A stretch of 22,057 bases of DNA from a virus: the IMG/VR virus record IMGVR_UViG_3300037882_002138, positions 1 to 22,057 of that record, one strand, 5' to 3'. Each line of letters starts with the position of its first letter. Position 1 is the first letter of the stretch. Positions 1,231 through 11,118 of the stretch are shown piece by piece. A program made the position numbers and the translations under genes. The notes under the pieces were generated by a model. The model had not been told where the DNA came from. It did not search any database and was given only the letters and a program-made list of their open reading frames with translations.

Positions 1231-2049
1231 GTGTTCCAGACCTTACATCATATTGCCCGACAATGCACCCGACAAATGGGCGGCATTAAGGATATTGCGC
1301 TCATTGACCCTGATGATATTCAGAGCCAGGGAGCGCAATATCTGCAACCGAACATCAGCGGCATCACCCTGAAATCGGGGAAGTTCATGTACCTGTTCCA
1401 ACAGGCACGGCTCACGGGCCGATTTCAGTACCAGACCAACACCGATGCCCGCGCAGGGGATTATGTCACCTGCGAACTAAGCGCCCAGGTGCGAGGGGTG
1501 GCACTGGATCGCGATTGGATCGTTCAAAAATTCATGAATCGAAGGATACATGCAGTAGTAACATATCTCAACGGTACGCAGCGCTTCGTAAAGAACCTAC
1601 GCTTCCGGGCCACGCATGACAGCGGAGCCCGCAGGCAGGATAGAGTTTCATACTCATTTACCGCCACGTCCCGACTACTGCTACCACCCCCGCTCATCGC
1701 GGCCCCGCTTAATCTGCCGTATGTCTGCACAGGCGCAAGCGATAGCGGCCCTTGCGACTGTACCGAAACGACTATGATTGAAATCACTACTTCAGCCCCT
1801 AACACCTCCTACACTGTACCACAGGGGAGGCTTGTAACCGCGATACAGGTGCAAGGCACTGCAAATCAAACCGTGAATGTAGGCATCAGCAACGGCGGCG
1901 GCGAGATCGCGCAGGATATACCGCTCCTGGCTAATCAGGACATGTTGACGGGCAATAACGCTTTGTATGCGGATGTGACAAAAACGATATACTTCACCGG
2001 CCTACAGGGCAACAACACTATCAGGATATGGCTTTTGCACGACGCTTAA
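1231..2049 (+). CDS. Tail-associated beta-rich structural protein (putative)
   Basis: The protein is 272 aa if it starts at GTG 1231, or 257 aa from ATG 1276. The GTG is favoured because it lies exactly 4 nt after a -7-like element, the geometry seen at four other genes here. Two parts are visible. Residues about 17-150 (start near KDIALIDPDD) are a mixed domain with many aromatic and charged residues. Residues about 175-272 are rich in Thr, Asn, Gly and Val and look like a beta-sandwich. It lies immediately before fibre genes and overlaps the next gene by 22 nt, suggesting translational coupling. A baseplate or fibre-attachment role is plausible, but I do not recognise the family. Confidence 0.6.
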   Translation: MFQTLHHIARQCTRQMGGIKDIALIDPDDIQSQGAQYLQPNISGITLKSGKFMYLFQQARLTGRFQYQTNTDARAGDYVTCELSAQVRGVALDRDWIVQKFMNRRIHAVVTYLNGTQRFVKNLRFRATHDSGARRQDRVSYSFTATSRLLLPPPLIAAPLNLPYVCTGASDSGPCDCTETTMIEITTSAPNTSYTVPQGRLVTAIQVQGTANQTVNVGISNGGGEIAQDIPLLANQDMLTGNNALYADVTKTIYFTGLQGNNTIRIWLLHDA

Positions 2050-2801
2050 TTATGCTCGCGCTGCTCATAGCAGCGCACACCGCCGCCGCGCAAACGCTCA
2101 CCGTAGACTCGAAGGACGTTCAAATCGCGCGAAAAAAACTACAGATCGGCACGGACACGGCTCGCAACTTCATCAGTATTGTTTCCGTGATTGTATCCAG
2201 CGCCACCCAACGGCAGGCCCCTACGGCCAAAGCCGTGTATGATGCCATCCAAGCCATCGCGGCCCAAGCCGCCGCATCAGGACTGGCCAATGCCGCAAAA
2301 ATCCGCCTGAATAATACCAACACTACCGGGATAGACCTGCAAGGCACGGACGGACTCCGTTTTGCGCAATCATCCGGCACGCTGATAACTGCAAGCATCC
2401 GCGACACATCTATATCGCTTTCCAAAATAAACCGCTCCGGCGCATTAGATAATAACTCTATCAGGTGGAACGGGACCAATTGGGTAGCCTCCGCCCGAAA
2501 CCTATATGATATAGTGAGCGCGAACTACACCGTAGCGGCCTCCCTGAACGAGGTATTCGTAGAAGGCCAAACGGCAGCCATCACGCTGAATCTGCCGCCG
2601 TGCAACACGGCCAACAACGGCGCGAAGTTCATCATAACAAAATCGGGCGGGGACACCTTCAGTATAAGCATAGACCCCAGCGGTTCAGAGACCTTTCAAG
2701 ACGGCGCCGCCGTAAAGCGGCTCTACTCACAAGGAACATCCGTTTCCTGTACCTGCACATTTATTTCTGGGACAGGGAAATGGCATTTTTCAAACATGTA
2801 A
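2028..2801 (+). CDS. Fibre-like protein 1 with signal peptide
   Basis: The protein is 257 aa from ATG 2028; ATG 2052, two bases after the previous stop, would give 249 aa. The longer start supplies two arginines ahead of a hydrophobic stretch and an AAA-Q junction near residue 21, a good Sec signal peptide for signal peptidase I. Residues 60-100 are Ala-rich and helical, and 100-150 resemble fibre-shaft sequence. The last 90 residues (ITLNLPPCN, GDTFSISIDPSG, ETFQDGA, LYSQG) match the C-terminus of the protein encoded at 2819-3934 domain for domain. It is probably a fibre, decoration or exported adhesion protein. A signal peptide on a phage structural protein is odd, because virion proteins normally assemble in the cytoplasm. 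Confidence 0.7.
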   Translation: MAFARRLIMLALLIAAHTAAAQTLTVDSKDVQIARKKLQIGTDTARNFISIVSVIVSSATQRQAPTAKAVYDAIQAIAAQAAASGLANAAKIRLNNTNTTGIDLQGTDGLRFAQSSGTLITASIRDTSISLSKINRSGALDNNSIRWNGTNWVASARNLYDIVSANYTVAASLNEVFVEGQTAAITLNLPPCNTANNGAKFIITKSGGDTFSISIDPSGSETFQDGAAVKRLYSQGTSVSCTCTFISGTGKWHFSNM

Positions 2802-2818
2802 ATTTCATTATTAGCAAC

Positions 2819-3934
2819 ATGAAAAAACTCATTTTTTCAATCATTTTTTCATTTTTCGCGCTGTTCTCCTTCGCGCAAGTGCCGAGCATCACGGATGCGA
2901 CGCTCATCAAGTTTCTCTCCGGGGATAACTCCTTCCTGCGCAGCGCGTTGGATCTAAAAAACTACATCGCTCCTGGCGGTGGTACAGGTACGGTCACCAG
3001 TGTGGGCCTCGGCTTGCCTGCGGAGTTCACGGTCACAGGTAGCCCCGTCACCACATCCGGTACACTCACGGGCGCATGGGCCACCCAAACGGCCAATCTG
3101 ATGTTCGCAAGCCCTAACGGTAGCAGTGGCACTCCTTCTTTCCGCGCCATGGTCGCGGCGGATGTACCTACATTGCCTGCGAACAAGATCACAGGCGCAA
3201 ACTTGACAGCGGCAACGACGAAAATCACGGTCACAGGCGGCACAGGAGCCGTACTGTCCGCTGCTACAGTGGACGTCAACGAGGCGAATCTTACGCTTAA
3301 TAATATAGGCGGCACACTTGGCGTCACGAAAGGCGGCACAGGCCTCACGGCTGTCGGCGGCAACGGTACAATATTAGGCAGCGACGGCACAGCCGCCCTA
3401 TACCTCAATCCGACCATCACCACTACAGCGGCGGCTATCGCCTTCGCCCGAAGCGGCAGCAACCTGAACCTTAATATCCCGGATGCAGATGCGACCAACA
3501 GGGGGACAGTAGGTACAGGCGCACAGACGTGGGCAGGGGCCAAAACATTCACCGGTCAGGTGATCGGTAACGGCGGCGTACAAGGTGCGGCCACGGCTTC
3601 TTTGGCCGCCGTGGACATAAACGGCGTTGAAGACGGCGCATGGGCAAGCACAACGGCCACGCTCACGCTGGATCAGACCAACAACATGGTCAACATCGGC
3701 ACCCTTACAGCAGGTATCACGATCAACCTACCCGCATGCAATAGCACGCGGGATGGCTGGACGTACAGTTTCTACAAGTCTGGCACCGACACCTTCGCGG
3801 CTACCATAGACCCTAACGGCACGGAGACCTTCGTGGACGGCGCTACCACTAAGGTGCTGTACAGCCAGTATAATTCTGCGCAGTGCAAATGCCGTTTTTC
3901 AGGCTCCGGCGCATGGTTTTTCATTCCTCAATAA
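2819..3934 (+). CDS. Tail-fibre-like protein 2 with signal peptide
   Basis: The protein is 371 aa from the ATG at 2819. An in-frame extension upstream to about 2600 is Arg/His-rich and overlaps the preceding gene, so I reject it. Residues 1-19 (MKKLIFSIIF..FSFAQ) form a clear signal peptide. Residues 21-50 (TDATLIKFLSGD) match the start of the next protein. The shaft (about 55-250) carries classic fibre repeats: GTGTVTSVGLGLP, FTVTGSPVTTSGTL and the KGGTG spacer. The last 100 residues are the domain shared with the preceding gene (ITINLPACN, IDPNGTETFVDGA). Shaft motifs of this kind are common in receptor-binding proteins. The encoded protein is probably trimeric. It lies 17 nt after the preceding gene and 7 nt before the next. 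Confidence 0.8.
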   Translation: MKKLIFSIIFSFFALFSFAQVPSITDATLIKFLSGDNSFLRSALDLKNYIAPGGGTGTVTSVGLGLPAEFTVTGSPVTTSGTLTGAWATQTANLMFASPNGSSGTPSFRAMVAADVPTLPANKITGANLTAATTKITVTGGTGAVLSAATVDVNEANLTLNNIGGTLGVTKGGTGLTAVGGNGTILGSDGTAALYLNPTITTTAAAIAFARSGSNLNLNIPDADATNRGTVGTGAQTWAGAKTFTGQVIGNGGVQGAATASLAAVDINGVEDGAWASTTATLTLDQTNNMVNIGTLTAGITINLPACNSTRDGWTYSFYKSGTDTFAATIDPNGTETFVDGATTKVLYSQYNSAQCKCRFSGSGAWFFIPQ

Positions 3935-3941
3935 TTTTAGC

Positions 3942-6900
3942 ATGCAGAAATTCCTTATCATATTTTTGGCGGCATTTCTGCTGCCTTTTTTCATTTCCGC
4001 ACAGCCCGTGGTCACCTCCGCCACCCGCGTGAAACTTTTCAAGGGGGATAGTATTTTTACAGCTCCGCTGTCGGGCTTGGCATCGGCTATCGGGGCGGGG
4101 GGGAATAGGCCGGATTCGGCGTTCGCAATTGGGGCGTATGCTACACCAGGTTACTGGAGTAAGACGGTCAATTCAAATTTGTGGAAGAAGGGCACGCTGT
4201 CTTTTCGGACTGCGGATACCACGGGGATGCTGACATTACACCAAGCGGATTCTGCAAATTTGAAACCGTCACTGTATTTCTCCGGGGACGGGGAATATAT
4301 CTGGAAAATTAAGAAAGATAGTCGCTCTGGCACAGGAACAGATTTCAATTTTGTAAGGAAATACGGCCCTTCTGGTTCAGATGGGCTGAATAACAATCAA
4401 ATTTTTGCGTTTGGTTGGAATGTAGCACCTGGCGGGGGCATGGAAAACCCATCATTCCCTTCCTGTTCTTACAGGATAGAGGAAAATTTCAAAAATGGCG
4501 TAAATAATGCAAACGCATTTGAATGTCACCTTCCTCACATTGAATTTTCAAATAATACTGGAAGAAGGCCATTAAGTGGTTATTTTTCAAGAAATCACAT
4601 AAATCCGACAGGAAACTGGTCATTCTCATCCGATTTTATAACCTTTAGCGATTATCAGACCAATACGCCTAAAGGCGTTTGGGCGTTCGGTACAAATACA
4701 GGATACGTTAAGGGTATCACATTTGCCGATACCGCAAATGTGATGATGGCTAAAAACAATGTGGGCGGGCTTTGGCAGCGAAATGCGGCTGACAACGCAT
4801 TCATTAGAATGTTGATGGTTGATAATGAAGATCGGATTTTATTAGGCGCGTCTGGCCCCGCCTCAAGGGTAGCAGCCTATAATGAGGTTCAAATTACAAA
4901 CGGCGGATACCTTTGGAATGAACTGGCCGAATTGAAGATTGGTAAAAATACAAGCACAGAAGGCGTTATTACATATTTTAATAGTGAAAGTAATGATAAC
5001 GTGTACTTTAGCAACCCGCTGGCCAGTAATTATCTTCGGATAGGGACTACAAACGAGGGGAGTGGCAATTACATGACTACCTTGTTTTCAGCGACGGGAG
5101 AAAGGTATTTCCAGGCCCGTCAAGATGTATCAGACCGCCTGCTAAATCTCGCAGGCAGTAAGGTTGCTATCAATGCTTATGCTCCAAGCCAAACCCAAAC
5201 CTTCACCGTTAACGGCACCACGCAATTGGGGACAGGGTCGGATGCAAATGCTAATAGCATATTGAACCTAAAAACTAATGCTTACAATGCAGACATTTTC
5301 GTTAATAACCAAAGCCCGGAAGCATTGTCTACCTCTGCGGTAGGCGGCATCGCACTTATCAATGACGGAGGCGTCGGGGCTTTGTATGGGAAATATTCAG
5401 GATCAGGGAATACGGGCTGGGCCAAATTTCTAAACATGAAAGATCCTAACGGAGCAAGCACAAACCAAGTACTGCAGTGGAACGGCACCACATGGGGCCC
5501 CGCTTCTGTAGGCGGAATTGGAGGGTCAGGCACCACCAATTTCGTGACAAAATTCACAGGCCCAAACAGCATTGGAAACTCTACAATAACAGATGACGGC
5601 ACCGACGTGGGGTTCAATTGGGGCAGTAAAGTCCGTATCTATTTTAGCTCAAACTATAACATGGGAATGCAAAGGGGGACAGGTAGAGACCTTATCTTGT
5701 TTGCTAACTCTCCGGACAACGATGCAAAAGTTTCTTTGGTCGCGGCGAATATCACCGCACTTACGGCAGATCACTTAGGGAATGTAGGGATCGGAACCAC
5801 ATCGCCATCGGCTTCCTACAAGTTGGATATTATCGGGAAAGCCCGCGCACAGGGGCTTCGCGCCGAAGGCACCACCATGCAGCCAAGCCTCGAACTCGCA
5901 AACACGACGCCCACAACGGGCAAAACATTCACGCTCGGAAGCAGCAATACAGGCAACTTCTACATCAGCAGCGATGTGGCGGGTGATGCGATCTCCGTAA
6001 CACACGCTACGGGGGATGTGACGATCACGCCGAAATTAAAACTAACAACTGTAGGCACCGTCGCGACCTCCTTGGTCGGGCGAAATGCAGCGACGGAGGT
6101 TGCAGGGGTAACAATAGGAAGTGGGTTGGGGCTTACGGCTGGCACGCTCAGCGCCACGGACGCCTCCACCACAAACGAACTGCAAACGCTTAGCAACACC
6201 TCTGATGCAACATCACACACTGCTACACTATCCAACAGTGGCGGCAGCCTGAAACTTGTAGAAGGCAGCAATATTACCATCGCGACAACAGGAACAGCGC
6301 TGGATGGGATAGTGACAATAAGCGCCACAGGCGGGGGAAGTAGCCCCGTAATAATTACCCCGGCGGCCATCACGGTAGACCAAAATAATTACAGCCCGAC
6401 CGATTGGTCTACGGCGACCATAGTCAGGATTTCAGGAACGACACAAATTTGGGGGATCACAGGATTCTCTTCCTCCGGATTTTCTGGGGGGCACACAAAG
6501 AGAATAATTAATGTAGGGGCAAAATCTATCTATTTCGCAGGCGAACACCCATCCAGCACCGCCGCGAACAGAATATCCGCCACAAATGATTTTGTATTAG
6601 GGGCAAAAAAAAGCATGAATATAATTTTTGATGCTACCCTAAGCAGGTGGATTATAGAAGGCACAGAACGAGTGCCGGAAATAGAACATAATTGGAGTGC
6701 TGCGAGCCAAACAGGTAGTGAATTTGAAAACACTGCTTTTACGGCGATTGGTACGGGGACAGTGAATACGGGGGGGAATGCGGCGACGGAAGAACCCGCA
6801 ACAACAAAAATTAGCACAGGGACAACATCAAGCGGCGGCGGCAGCATTACCCTCGGAAAAACTGTAGCCCCCATAGCCACACGGCTTGGACACAAATATG

Positions 6901-7328
6901 TTGAAGGGTATTTCACGTTACTATCTACAAGCAACGCCTCGAACCGATATACGGCTGGATTAATAATCAGCACTACTACAACAGGTACATTTGGGGCGGC
7001 TAACACCTGTGGGGTACGCTATACAGACAACGTGAACTCCGGCCGATGGGAACTGTACAGCATCAATAATGGCGGCACCACCGTCACGCAAGATCTCGGT
7101 ATAACTGTTTCATCAGCGCCTACGAAAATAAGGATAGAGATGGATGATGCAGGGGCTACAATACGCGCCTACTTAAACGAAGAAATGAAGGGGCAAATAT
7201 CAGGGTCATCATCACTGCCAACCGAATTTGGCAATTATTTTGGAAAATTGCAAATAATCAAATCCGTAGGCACTACGGCTGTCGTTATGGATTGTTATAG
7301 CATGAAATCTGGCATACATACCTATTAA
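3942..7328 (+). CDS. Large tail fibre / receptor-binding protein with signal peptide
   Basis: The protein is 1128 aa. Residues 1-20 are a signal peptide ending ISAQ. Residues 21-50 (TSATRVKLFKGD) match the N-terminus of the preceding fibre. The stretch at about 110-480 is beta-rich, and its DNA is visibly more A/T-rich than the flanks, suggesting a module of different origin. Residues about 540-630 contain TNFVTKFTGPNSIGNS and GNVGIGTTSPS, motifs typical of Bacteroidota fibre proteins. A Ser/Thr-rich shaft follows. Residues about 914-1128 resemble a lectin-like beta-sandwich (GRWELYSINNGG, IRIEMDDAGATIRAYLN). Proteins with GIGTTSPS repeats often end in an intramolecular chaperone of the S74 type; none is seen here. 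This is the best candidate for host recognition. The stop codon overlaps the next start by one base. Confidence 0.8.
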   Translation: MQKFLIIFLAAFLLPFFISAQPVVTSATRVKLFKGDSIFTAPLSGLASAIGAGGNRPDSAFAIGAYATPGYWSKTVNSNLWKKGTLSFRTADTTGMLTLHQADSANLKPSLYFSGDGEYIWKIKKDSRSGTGTDFNFVRKYGPSGSDGLNNNQIFAFGWNVAPGGGMENPSFPSCSYRIEENFKNGVNNANAFECHLPHIEFSNNTGRRPLSGYFSRNHINPTGNWSFSSDFITFSDYQTNTPKGVWAFGTNTGYVKGITFADTANVMMAKNNVGGLWQRNAADNAFIRMLMVDNEDRILLGASGPASRVAAYNEVQITNGGYLWNELAELKIGKNTSTEGVITYFNSESNDNVYFSNPLASNYLRIGTTNEGSGNYMTTLFSATGERYFQARQDVSDRLLNLAGSKVAINAYAPSQTQTFTVNGTTQLGTGSDANANSILNLKTNAYNADIFVNNQSPEALSTSAVGGIALINDGGVGALYGKYSGSGNTGWAKFLNMKDPNGASTNQVLQWNGTTWGPASVGGIGGSGTTNFVTKFTGPNSIGNSTITDDGTDVGFNWGSKVRIYFSSNYNMGMQRGTGRDLILFANSPDNDAKVSLVAANITALTADHLGNVGIGTTSPSASYKLDIIGKARAQGLRAEGTTMQPSLELANTTPTTGKTFTLGSSNTGNFYISSDVAGDAISVTHATGDVTITPKLKLTTVGTVATSLVGRNAATEVAGVTIGSGLGLTAGTLSATDASTTNELQTLSNTSDATSHTATLSNSGGSLKLVEGSNITIATTGTALDGIVTISATGGGSSPVIITPAAITVDQNNYSPTDWSTATIVRISGTTQIWGITGFSSSGFSGGHTKRIINVGAKSIYFAGEHPSSTAANRISATNDFVLGAKKSMNIIFDATLSRWIIEGTERVPEIEHNWSAASQTGSEFENTAFTAIGTGTVNTGGNAATEEPATTKISTGTTSSGGGSITLGKTVAPIATRLGHKYVEGYFTLLSTSNASNRYTAGLIISTTTTGTFGAANTCGVRYTDNVNSGRWELYSINNGGTTVTQDLGITVSSAPTKIRIEMDDAGATIRAYLNEEMKGQISGSSSLPTEFGNYFGKLQIIKSVGTTAVVMDCYSMKSGIHTY

Positions 7329-7552
7329 TGCGCATATTTCTCCTCCTCCTAATCCTTCACCTATCCTTTGCCTGCGCCCTGGCACAGGCAAGCCGCGACA
7401 GAGTCCGCACGGTGGATACCGTTACGGTTCGGGCGCGGCGGGTGCTTAGATATGTATCTATGTCATCGCCGTGGGATACGGCATCATGGAAGCGGATGAA
7501 TATGCCGCCCCTTCCTGCGGACACCACCCGCCACAAAAAGCCCCGAAAATAG
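7328..7552 (+). CDS. Small exported protein of unknown function
   Basis: The protein is 74 aa and its ATG overlaps the preceding stop by one base (TAATG), indicating coupling. Residues 1-20 (MRIFLLLLILHLSFACALAQ) form a strong signal peptide. A Cys at position 15 sits in SFAC, which is not a canonical lipobox. The mature part is about 54 residues, very basic at the end (RHKKPRK), with a Pro-rich stretch near 60. Small, exported, Pro-containing proteins include outer-membrane spanin subunits, but evidence for that is weak. The stop codon lies in the loop of a terminator, so this is the last gene of the adhesion block. Confidence 0.6.
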   Translation: MRIFLLLLILHLSFACALAQASRDRVRTVDTVTVRARRVLRYVSMSSPWDTASWKRMNMPPLPADTTRHKKPRK

Positions 7553-7563
7553 CGGGGCTTTTT
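7535..7563 (+). terminator. Rho-independent terminator overlapping a stop codon
   Basis: AAAAAGCCCCG (7535-7545) pairs with CGGGGCTTTTT (7553-7563), an 11-bp stem with the loop AAAATAG. The TAG stop of the preceding gene (7550-7552) lies in the loop, so the last codons form the left arm. It ends the adhesion operon 18 nt before late-promoter-like site P2. Confidence 0.88.
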
Positions 7564-10908: not shown

Positions 10909-11118
10909 ATGGAGCAACAAGCAATTAATAACCTCGAGCAAATCGAGAACCCCATCCTCGCCCTGCTGCTTATCGTACTTATTGTGGCGCACATATTTCA
11001 GTATCGGGAGCGAACGAAGTTACAGGAGCGCCTGTACATCATAGCTACCGAAAGCGTGGGTGCCATCAAGGACGTAACCACACGGCTGGAGGATATTGAG
11101 GAAAAACTTAACTCATAA
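10909..11118 (+). CDS. Holin-like small membrane protein
   Basis: The protein is 69 aa. Residues 13-32 (ENPILALLLIVLIVAHIFQY) form one strong transmembrane helix. A charged RERTKLQER segment and an amphipathic helix to the C-terminus (VTTRLEDIEEKL) follow. A short N-terminus, one transmembrane helix, a basic stretch and then a coiled coil is the layout of BhlA/UviB-type holins, which permeabilise the inner membrane. The similarity is topological and no search was possible. No endolysin is seen anywhere in the window, so the lysis cassette would be split. A membrane-anchored superinfection or assembly factor is the main alternative. Confidence 0.5.
   Translation: MEQQAINNLEQIENPILALLLIVLIVAHIFQYRERTKLQERLYIIATESVGAIKDVTTRLEDIEEKLNS

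Follow-up and report, generated by a model that had tools for sequence, protein, structure and literature searches.

Why would a tailed phage place export signals on a run of genes that look like fibre genes? The question is raised by the IMG/VR virus record IMGVR_UViG_3300037882_002138, a 22,057-nt fragment of a tailed-phage genome (hereafter the window), in which four consecutive genes starting at positions 2028, 2819, 3942 and 7328 begin with signal peptides. Fibres of tailed phages are, in the textbook view, cytoplasmic products that are attached before lysis. By analogy with cultured phages, it is probable that the products of 2028, 2819 and 3942 are instead tail-fibre-like proteins that are exported by Sec, cleaved before a glutamine (Gln, Q) and joined to virions around lysis.

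Signal peptides were sought in 25 reading frames of the window with a rule that demands a charged n-region, a hydrophobic core and a small-x-small cleavage site. Exactly four passed, those at 2028, 2819, 3942 and 7328, and no Sec-type signal was found in any other of these frames. An earlier note on this DNA had described an AxA-like site followed by Gln in the same four products, and its coordinates and residues were right: Gln is at +1 in all four, in the signals MAFARRLIMLALLIAAHTAAA↓QTLTV (2028), MKKLIFSIIFSFFALFSFA↓QVPSI (2819), MQKFLIIFLAAFLLPFFISA↓QPVVT (3942) and MRIFLLLLILHLSFACALA↓QASRD (7328), with the cleavage sites AAA↓Q, SFA↓Q, ISA↓Q and ALA↓Q. When the N-termini of the four products were shuffled, a Q-type signal survived in 0.8–3.6% of trials. 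Across all fetched loci, this rule-based test was passed by 65 of 6402 non-coding 'shadow' open reading frames (ORFs; 1.0%) and by 131 of 3862 called genes (3.4%). At the shadow rate, the probability is ~1e-4 for at least 4 of 24 genes and ~2e-7 for a run of four; at the called-gene rate, that of the run is ~3e-5. The run of four signal genes is far beyond chance.

In Bacteroidetes, substrates of signal peptidase I (SPI) mostly carry Gln at +1, which is cyclized to pyroglutamate (the 'Q-rule'; PMC5837995, PMC10653852), and the rule is specific to the SPI substrates of this group (PMC5837995, which makes no mention of phages). The signals in the window have the same layout and the same +1 Gln, although the substrates described in these two papers are host proteins. 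Every one of the four has the Q site, the signal codons of relatives are under purifying selection, and such signals recur across phage families (both below); the proposal of the earlier note that these N-termini are genuine export signals is thus well supported. A lipoprotein reading of the 7328 product (SFAC) was set aside, the lipobox being poor and the ALA↓Q site lying downstream, and the window fibre products gave no NCBIfam match to a C-terminal signal of the type IX secretion system. Small (76–113 aa) Q-rule signal proteins recur in loci L003, L008, L018, L116, L118, L037 and L087, and these may be periplasmic or lysis proteins.

The four genes belong to a unit with the following features:

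160–191, + strand: terminator-like hairpin upstream of the unit (10-pair stem, then a T run)
418–1212, + strand: upstream gene, 264 aa from ATG 418 (phmmer match to L114:16749-17519 of the syntenic relative G001, E 1e-4)
1231–2049, + strand: gene directly before 2028, no signal peptide (phmmer match to L114:17552-18286, E 8e-5)
2028–2801, + strand: signal-bearing fibre-like protein 1, 257 aa (signal and Q site)
2028–2090, + strand: signal peptide codons, AAA↓Q (rule-based test)
2517–2789, + strand: tip-like C-terminal domain, conserved C...CxC (alignment A5; structure model of the 2819 copy)
2819–3934, + strand: signal-bearing fibre-like protein 2, 371 aa (signal; central repeats match phage fibre ORFs)
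2819–2875, + strand: signal peptide codons, SFA↓Q (rule-based test)
3653–3922, + strand: tip-like C-terminal domain, paralogue of 2517–2789
3942–7328, + strand: signal-bearing large fibre-like protein 3, 1128 aa, with a GIGTTSP motif (signal; GC profile)
3942–4001, + strand: signal peptide codons, ISA↓Q (rule-based test)
7328–7552, + strand: small basic signal-bearing protein, 74 aa (~55 mature; signal; no family match)
7328–7384, + strand: signal peptide codons, ALA↓Q (rule-based test)
7535–7563, no strand assigned: terminator-like palindrome AAAAAGCCCCG-7-CGGGGCTTTTT closing the unit (read from the sequence, not listed by the scanner)

The signal genes, together with 418 and 1231, are bounded by the hairpin and the palindrome, the latter probably unlisted because its T run sits inside the stem. 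From 1231 to 7328 the genes are tightly packed, with a 22-nt overlap, gaps of 17 and 7 nt and a 1-nt overlap; for 2819, the mechanical ORF begins upstream at 2600, and the sensible start is ATG 2819. Between the hairpin and 418, positions 202–317 hold a 58-nt C-rich repeat in two tandem copies (93% alike), possibly a regulatory site. A C...CxC stretch (CTGASDSGPCDC) occurs in the signal-less 1231 product as well.

Fibre-type domains were found for 2028 and 2819, two of the three large proteins; 3942 is not among these. The C-terminal domains of 2028 and 2819 are 48% identical over 91 aa, and in both of these tips three cysteines (C...CxC) are conserved, which could form disulfides or bind metal. 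AlphaFold gave a poor model of the full 2819 product (predicted local distance difference test, pLDDT, 36.5) and a weak but usable one of its tip domain (pLDDT 57). Structures matching the tip model are largely uncharacterized Caudovirales and fibre proteins, including a 'Phage tail fiber-like protein' (E 5e-4), and its PDB matches include the tailspike TSP4 of CBA120 (E 5e-3) and, from a Klebsiella phage, a baseplate protein (E 2e-2). With low confidence, the modelled tip domain of 2028 and 2819 resembles phage tail fibre-like and tailspike structures. The central repeats of 2819 are common to fibre ORFs of many other phages; none of 24 fibre ORFs with 2819-type repeats (most of them close variants of one fibre) carries a signal peptide, and homologous fibre repeats are present in non-Bacteroidota phages without signals.

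The N-terminal 110 aa of 3942 are weakly similar to 2819. The GC content of 3942 is 0.40–0.46 at ~4242–5440, against 0.53–0.57 in its first 300 bases and in the flanking genes, and because a dip after the first 300 bases fits the expectation for a fixed N-terminus, the profile suggests that the fibre body behind it has been swapped. No match was found by tblastn of 3942 against phages. The signal genes lie in the structural module, before the scaffold and capsid genes, in synteny with G001, where tail genes precede. The 74-aa product of 7328 shows no fibre feature and no family match and may not be a fibre, a correction to the earlier note.

A signal-bearing fibre gene is found at the corresponding place in G001 (38.7 kb), which encodes homologues of 418 and 1231, then a 103-aa gene and then the fibre gene, so that L114:17552-18286 occupies a position equivalent to that of 1231. 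The fibre there carries the signal MKQLLSLLFLCLLCTGVRA↓Q (VRA↓Q) and collagen-like repeats and matches the tail fibre family phrog_3904 (E 1e-14), while a second fibre-like gene downstream (L113:2280-4040) has no signal. Uninterrupted versions of this fibre span 776 aa in L176 and 1139 aa in L174; the two share 64% identity in their first 455 aa and 97% in their last 293, with a middle that differs in length. The ends of the G001 record (L113:1 and L114:19316) share an exact 29-nt repeat, and since this falls within the collagen-like repeats of the fibre gene, the apparent circularity may reflect a repeat-driven assembly break.

Among more distant terminase relatives, L022, L023, L029 (four genes) and L033 (two genes) have runs of signal genes with Gln at +1 in a common position, preceded by the portal and adaptor genes and by a small membrane protein, and Flavobacteriaceae and Pricia loci (L143, L147) have two such genes each. 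The first members of the relatives' runs have a common mature start, Q-[IFV]-x-[VT]-T-[KR]-E-G. The L033 member contains a segment that also occurs in tail fibre PHROGs and in actinophage and cyanophage proteins of three kinds (tail fibre, minor tail, host-specificity); for the L029 member, matches to tail fibre families have E values of 5e-22 and 8e-12. Signal-bearing proteins also match the tail fibre families phrog_16053, phrog_11518 and phrog_892, and runs of signal-bearing genes are present in Pachyviridae, Assiduviridae and Duneviridae as well.

These families include cultured phages. Cellulophaga phages phi10:1 and phi19:1 (Assiduviridae), phi18:3 and phi46:3 (Pachyviridae) and phage Ingeline_1 (Duneviridae) have, like the window, 3–5 consecutive Q-rule signal genes with fibre-type bodies in the distal structural block. 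In Ingeline_1, four lie in a row upstream of an S49/capsid gene, as in the window, and in phi46:3 and phi19:3 the equivalent runs are annotated by similarity. All 11 proteins of the runs phi18:3 gp85-87, phi10:1 gp91-94 and phi19:1 gp101-104 have a signal peptide, with Gln at +1 in 10, and all 11 carry the record note 'structural protein; annotation based on experimental MS/MS proteomics analysis' (MS/MS, tandem mass spectrometry). The family of phi10:1 gp94 is the PHROG 'tail fiber protein' phrog_16053, and the adjoining signal-bearing pectate lyase, gp95, has no such note. Because these 11 signal-bearing proteins are annotated by MS/MS, export signals and virion membership occur together in cultured phages, which contradicts the suggestion of the earlier note that such proteins are either exported or virion parts.

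Two observations bear on how the leader is kept and moved. In the lyase family, the first 20 (signal) codons show up to six synonymous and no nonsynonymous differences between phages, as for a leader under purifying selection that is maintained as an export signal. In phi46:3, the leaders of gp81 and gp82 (L120 34513-37690) differ by a single synonymous change, and from just beyond the cleavage site the two genes are unrelated. Since the leader alone is common to these two genes, it moves as a unit, recombining at the cleavage site, without the adjoining domain. It is possible that the signal segment alone was borrowed from host secreted genes.

We propose that 2028, 2819 and 3942 would be made as Sec precursors and cut before Gln by host SPI, the +1 Gln probably being cyclized to pyroglutamate under the Q-rule. 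Folding would take place outside the cytoplasm, and the C...CxC tips might acquire disulfides there. The heads and tails, assembled in the cytoplasm, would most likely encounter these proteins around lysis, in the envelope or periplasm. The fibres would thus become parts of the virion, as the relatives lead us to expect for the window phage, and the 74-aa product would be exported by the same logic.

Several points weigh against this proposal. The MS/MS evidence for virions consists of depositors' notes in sequence records, and such notes do not show whether a protein was mature or a precursor, or whether it was part of the virion or an exported protein bound tightly to it. No sequence homologue of the window fibre products was detected by phmmer (E 1e-3) among the MS/MS-identified Cellulophaga proteins, so the case for virion membership in the window is one of analogous arrangement. 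PHROGs, Pfam and NCBIfam gave no significant family for the 2028, 2819 and 3942 products, which we therefore term 'fibre-like' and leave outside the named fibre families. Finally, fibres without signals in many Bacteroidota phages indicate that export is unnecessary for fibres generally.

The strongest alternative, though an unlikely one in our view, is that the exported proteins stay with the host envelope or the medium, as adhesins or in receptor masking, superinfection exclusion or biofilm, and that their detection in particles elsewhere reflects bound material. It accommodates true export signals and is how the authors of a study of Porphyromonas phages interpret their Q-rule proteins (PMC10367356); lysogenic conversion is also possible, since integrase-like genes adjoin terminase relatives in metagenome-assembled genomes (MAGs). 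Yet all block signal genes but one in the three cultured phages are recorded as virion-detected, the genes sit within the structural module, and phage fibre families are found on signal-bearing proteins. The alternative is weakened by this and still stands, because MS/MS cannot tell virion parts from tightly bound proteins.

It is less likely again that an uncleaved hydrophobic N-terminus anchors the fibre in the virion or baseplate, with cytoplasmic folding preventing export. This would agree with virion presence in relatives and with one Cellulophaga protein in which different phage families share ~91% identity over the first 102 aa, a stretch that takes in the leader. The small-x-small site followed by Gln is nevertheless retained in nearly all, which a mere anchor should not need, and phi46:3 gp81 and gp82 diverge past the cleavage site with only the leader in common; the conserved +1 Gln and this leader sharing disfavour the anchoring module raised in the earlier note. 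Also raised there, and very unlikely, is the capture of whole host-type GIGTTSP surface proteins as phage cargo. A host-like ORF in L161 does read ...SLA↓QVGIGTTS, and 3942 contains both GIGTTSP and internal GC shifts, but wholesale capture finds no support because the 2819 repeats match fibres of many phages and the tip domain is like phage fibre or tailspike structures; in relatives, moreover, the syntenic gene is a collagen-type fibre. Chance hydrophobic N-termini or misplaced starts, which do yield single signals of this type in ~1% of shadow ORFs, can be dismissed for four in a row that all have Gln (run probability ~2e-7 to 3e-5) and are refuted by the recurrence in at least five phage groups.

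Returning to export with virion attachment, the comparison with phages lacking such signals indicates whose trait it is. Phage phi18:1 infects C. baltica #18, like phi18:3, and the examined MS/MS-detected and fibre proteins of phi18:1 have no signals. Because the two phages share a host and differ in fibre signals, export is a phage strategy and not a host requirement. No Q-type signal was present in the examined fibre or distal proteins of phi38:1, phi14:2 (Crassvirales), 11b, 6H, Leef (Helgolandviridae) and B40-8, all, like phi18:1, tailed phages of Bacteroidota, and the signal-less virion proteins examined in phi14:2 give no indication of Crassvirales as a further source of exported fibres.

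Among known systems, the coat proteins pIII and pVIII of filamentous phages are virion proteins made as Sec precursors, and these phages assemble at the inner membrane; the window, by contrast, belongs to a tailed phage, for which head and tail formation is expected in the cytoplasm. For the fibre and pectate-lyase block of the Cellulophaga phages (Ingeline_1 lies outside this comparison), no sequence homology with the window was detected, and the records of phi10:1, phi19:1 and phi18:3 note virion detection by MS/MS, a point on which they differ from the window. The window block works like the Cellulophaga-type signal-bearing block and is not filed as a member of it, because the run of signal genes with Gln is present but phmmer at E 1e-3 detected no protein homology. 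In phages of Porphyromonas gingivalis (proposed family Nixviridae), five phage genes of unknown function have Q-rule signals with a +1 Gln, as in the window, and effects on the host envelope were proposed; unlike the window genes, they are not presented as consecutive fibre genes (PMC10367356). Our literature search found no paper on tailed-phage fibres as Sec precursors in Bacteroidota, the nearest account being that of the Porphyromonas phages, and because many subscription papers lay outside it, the proposal of exported tail fibres is new only provisionally.

The structural genes of the window are all on the + strand. Beyond the signal genes, the following were assigned:

7605, + strand: possible scaffold/protease gene
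8798, + strand: capsid gene (phrog_1623)
14627, + strand: tape measure gene (TMP_3)
17875, + strand: portal-like gene
20520, + strand: terminase-like gene

The best relatives of the terminase belong to the IMG/VR phages L010-L014 (44% identity) and to prophage-like loci of an uncultured Lewinella (45%) and a Saprospiraceae MAG (39%), and Leef and 6H are among its relatives; 1 of 42 loci comes from a MAG labelled Alphaproteobacteria. Given the Lewinella and Saprospiraceae relatives, the host is probably a Bacteroidota of the Saprospiraceae kind, the best genome-borne terminases being only 39–45% identical to that of the window. By our reading of the ORFs, the terminase gene in L128 and L129 is followed by further genes and then by chromosomal-looking ones, with an integrase-like gene on the minus strand in L129. 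No match was found in a whole-window DNA search against phages or in scans of viral contigs for close relatives with the 1231 product, the scaffold/protease-like product of 7605 and the A5 tip domain. At 10909–11118, the window encodes a 69-aa, possibly holin-like protein that combines a single hydrophobic stretch with a coiled-coil-like tail. A recorded Microcystis phage (L007, MZ447863) has, besides an AGA↓Q signal gene at 37136, a capsid and a terminase related to those of Bacteroidota phages; its true host may be an associated Bacteroidota instead of Microcystis.

We see about an even chance that a widespread class of Bacteroidota tailed phages exports receptor-binding fibres via Sec and completes virions in the periplasm or during lysis, with fibres that would be pyroglutamate-capped and possibly disulfide-bonded and a leader that recombines separately. 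The idea is testable in cultured Cellulophaga phages, by comparing phi18:3 (exported fibres) with phi18:1 (none) on the same host strain. Runs of signal genes with Gln at +1 provide a simple sequence mark for the receptor-binding genes of Bacteroidota phages, which are often annotated merely as hypothetical. If the proposal is true, virion completion shifts to another compartment, and the oxidation and folding factors of the periplasm become available to fibres; cells and debris would be coated with free fibres, so that adsorption, exclusion and release become linked.

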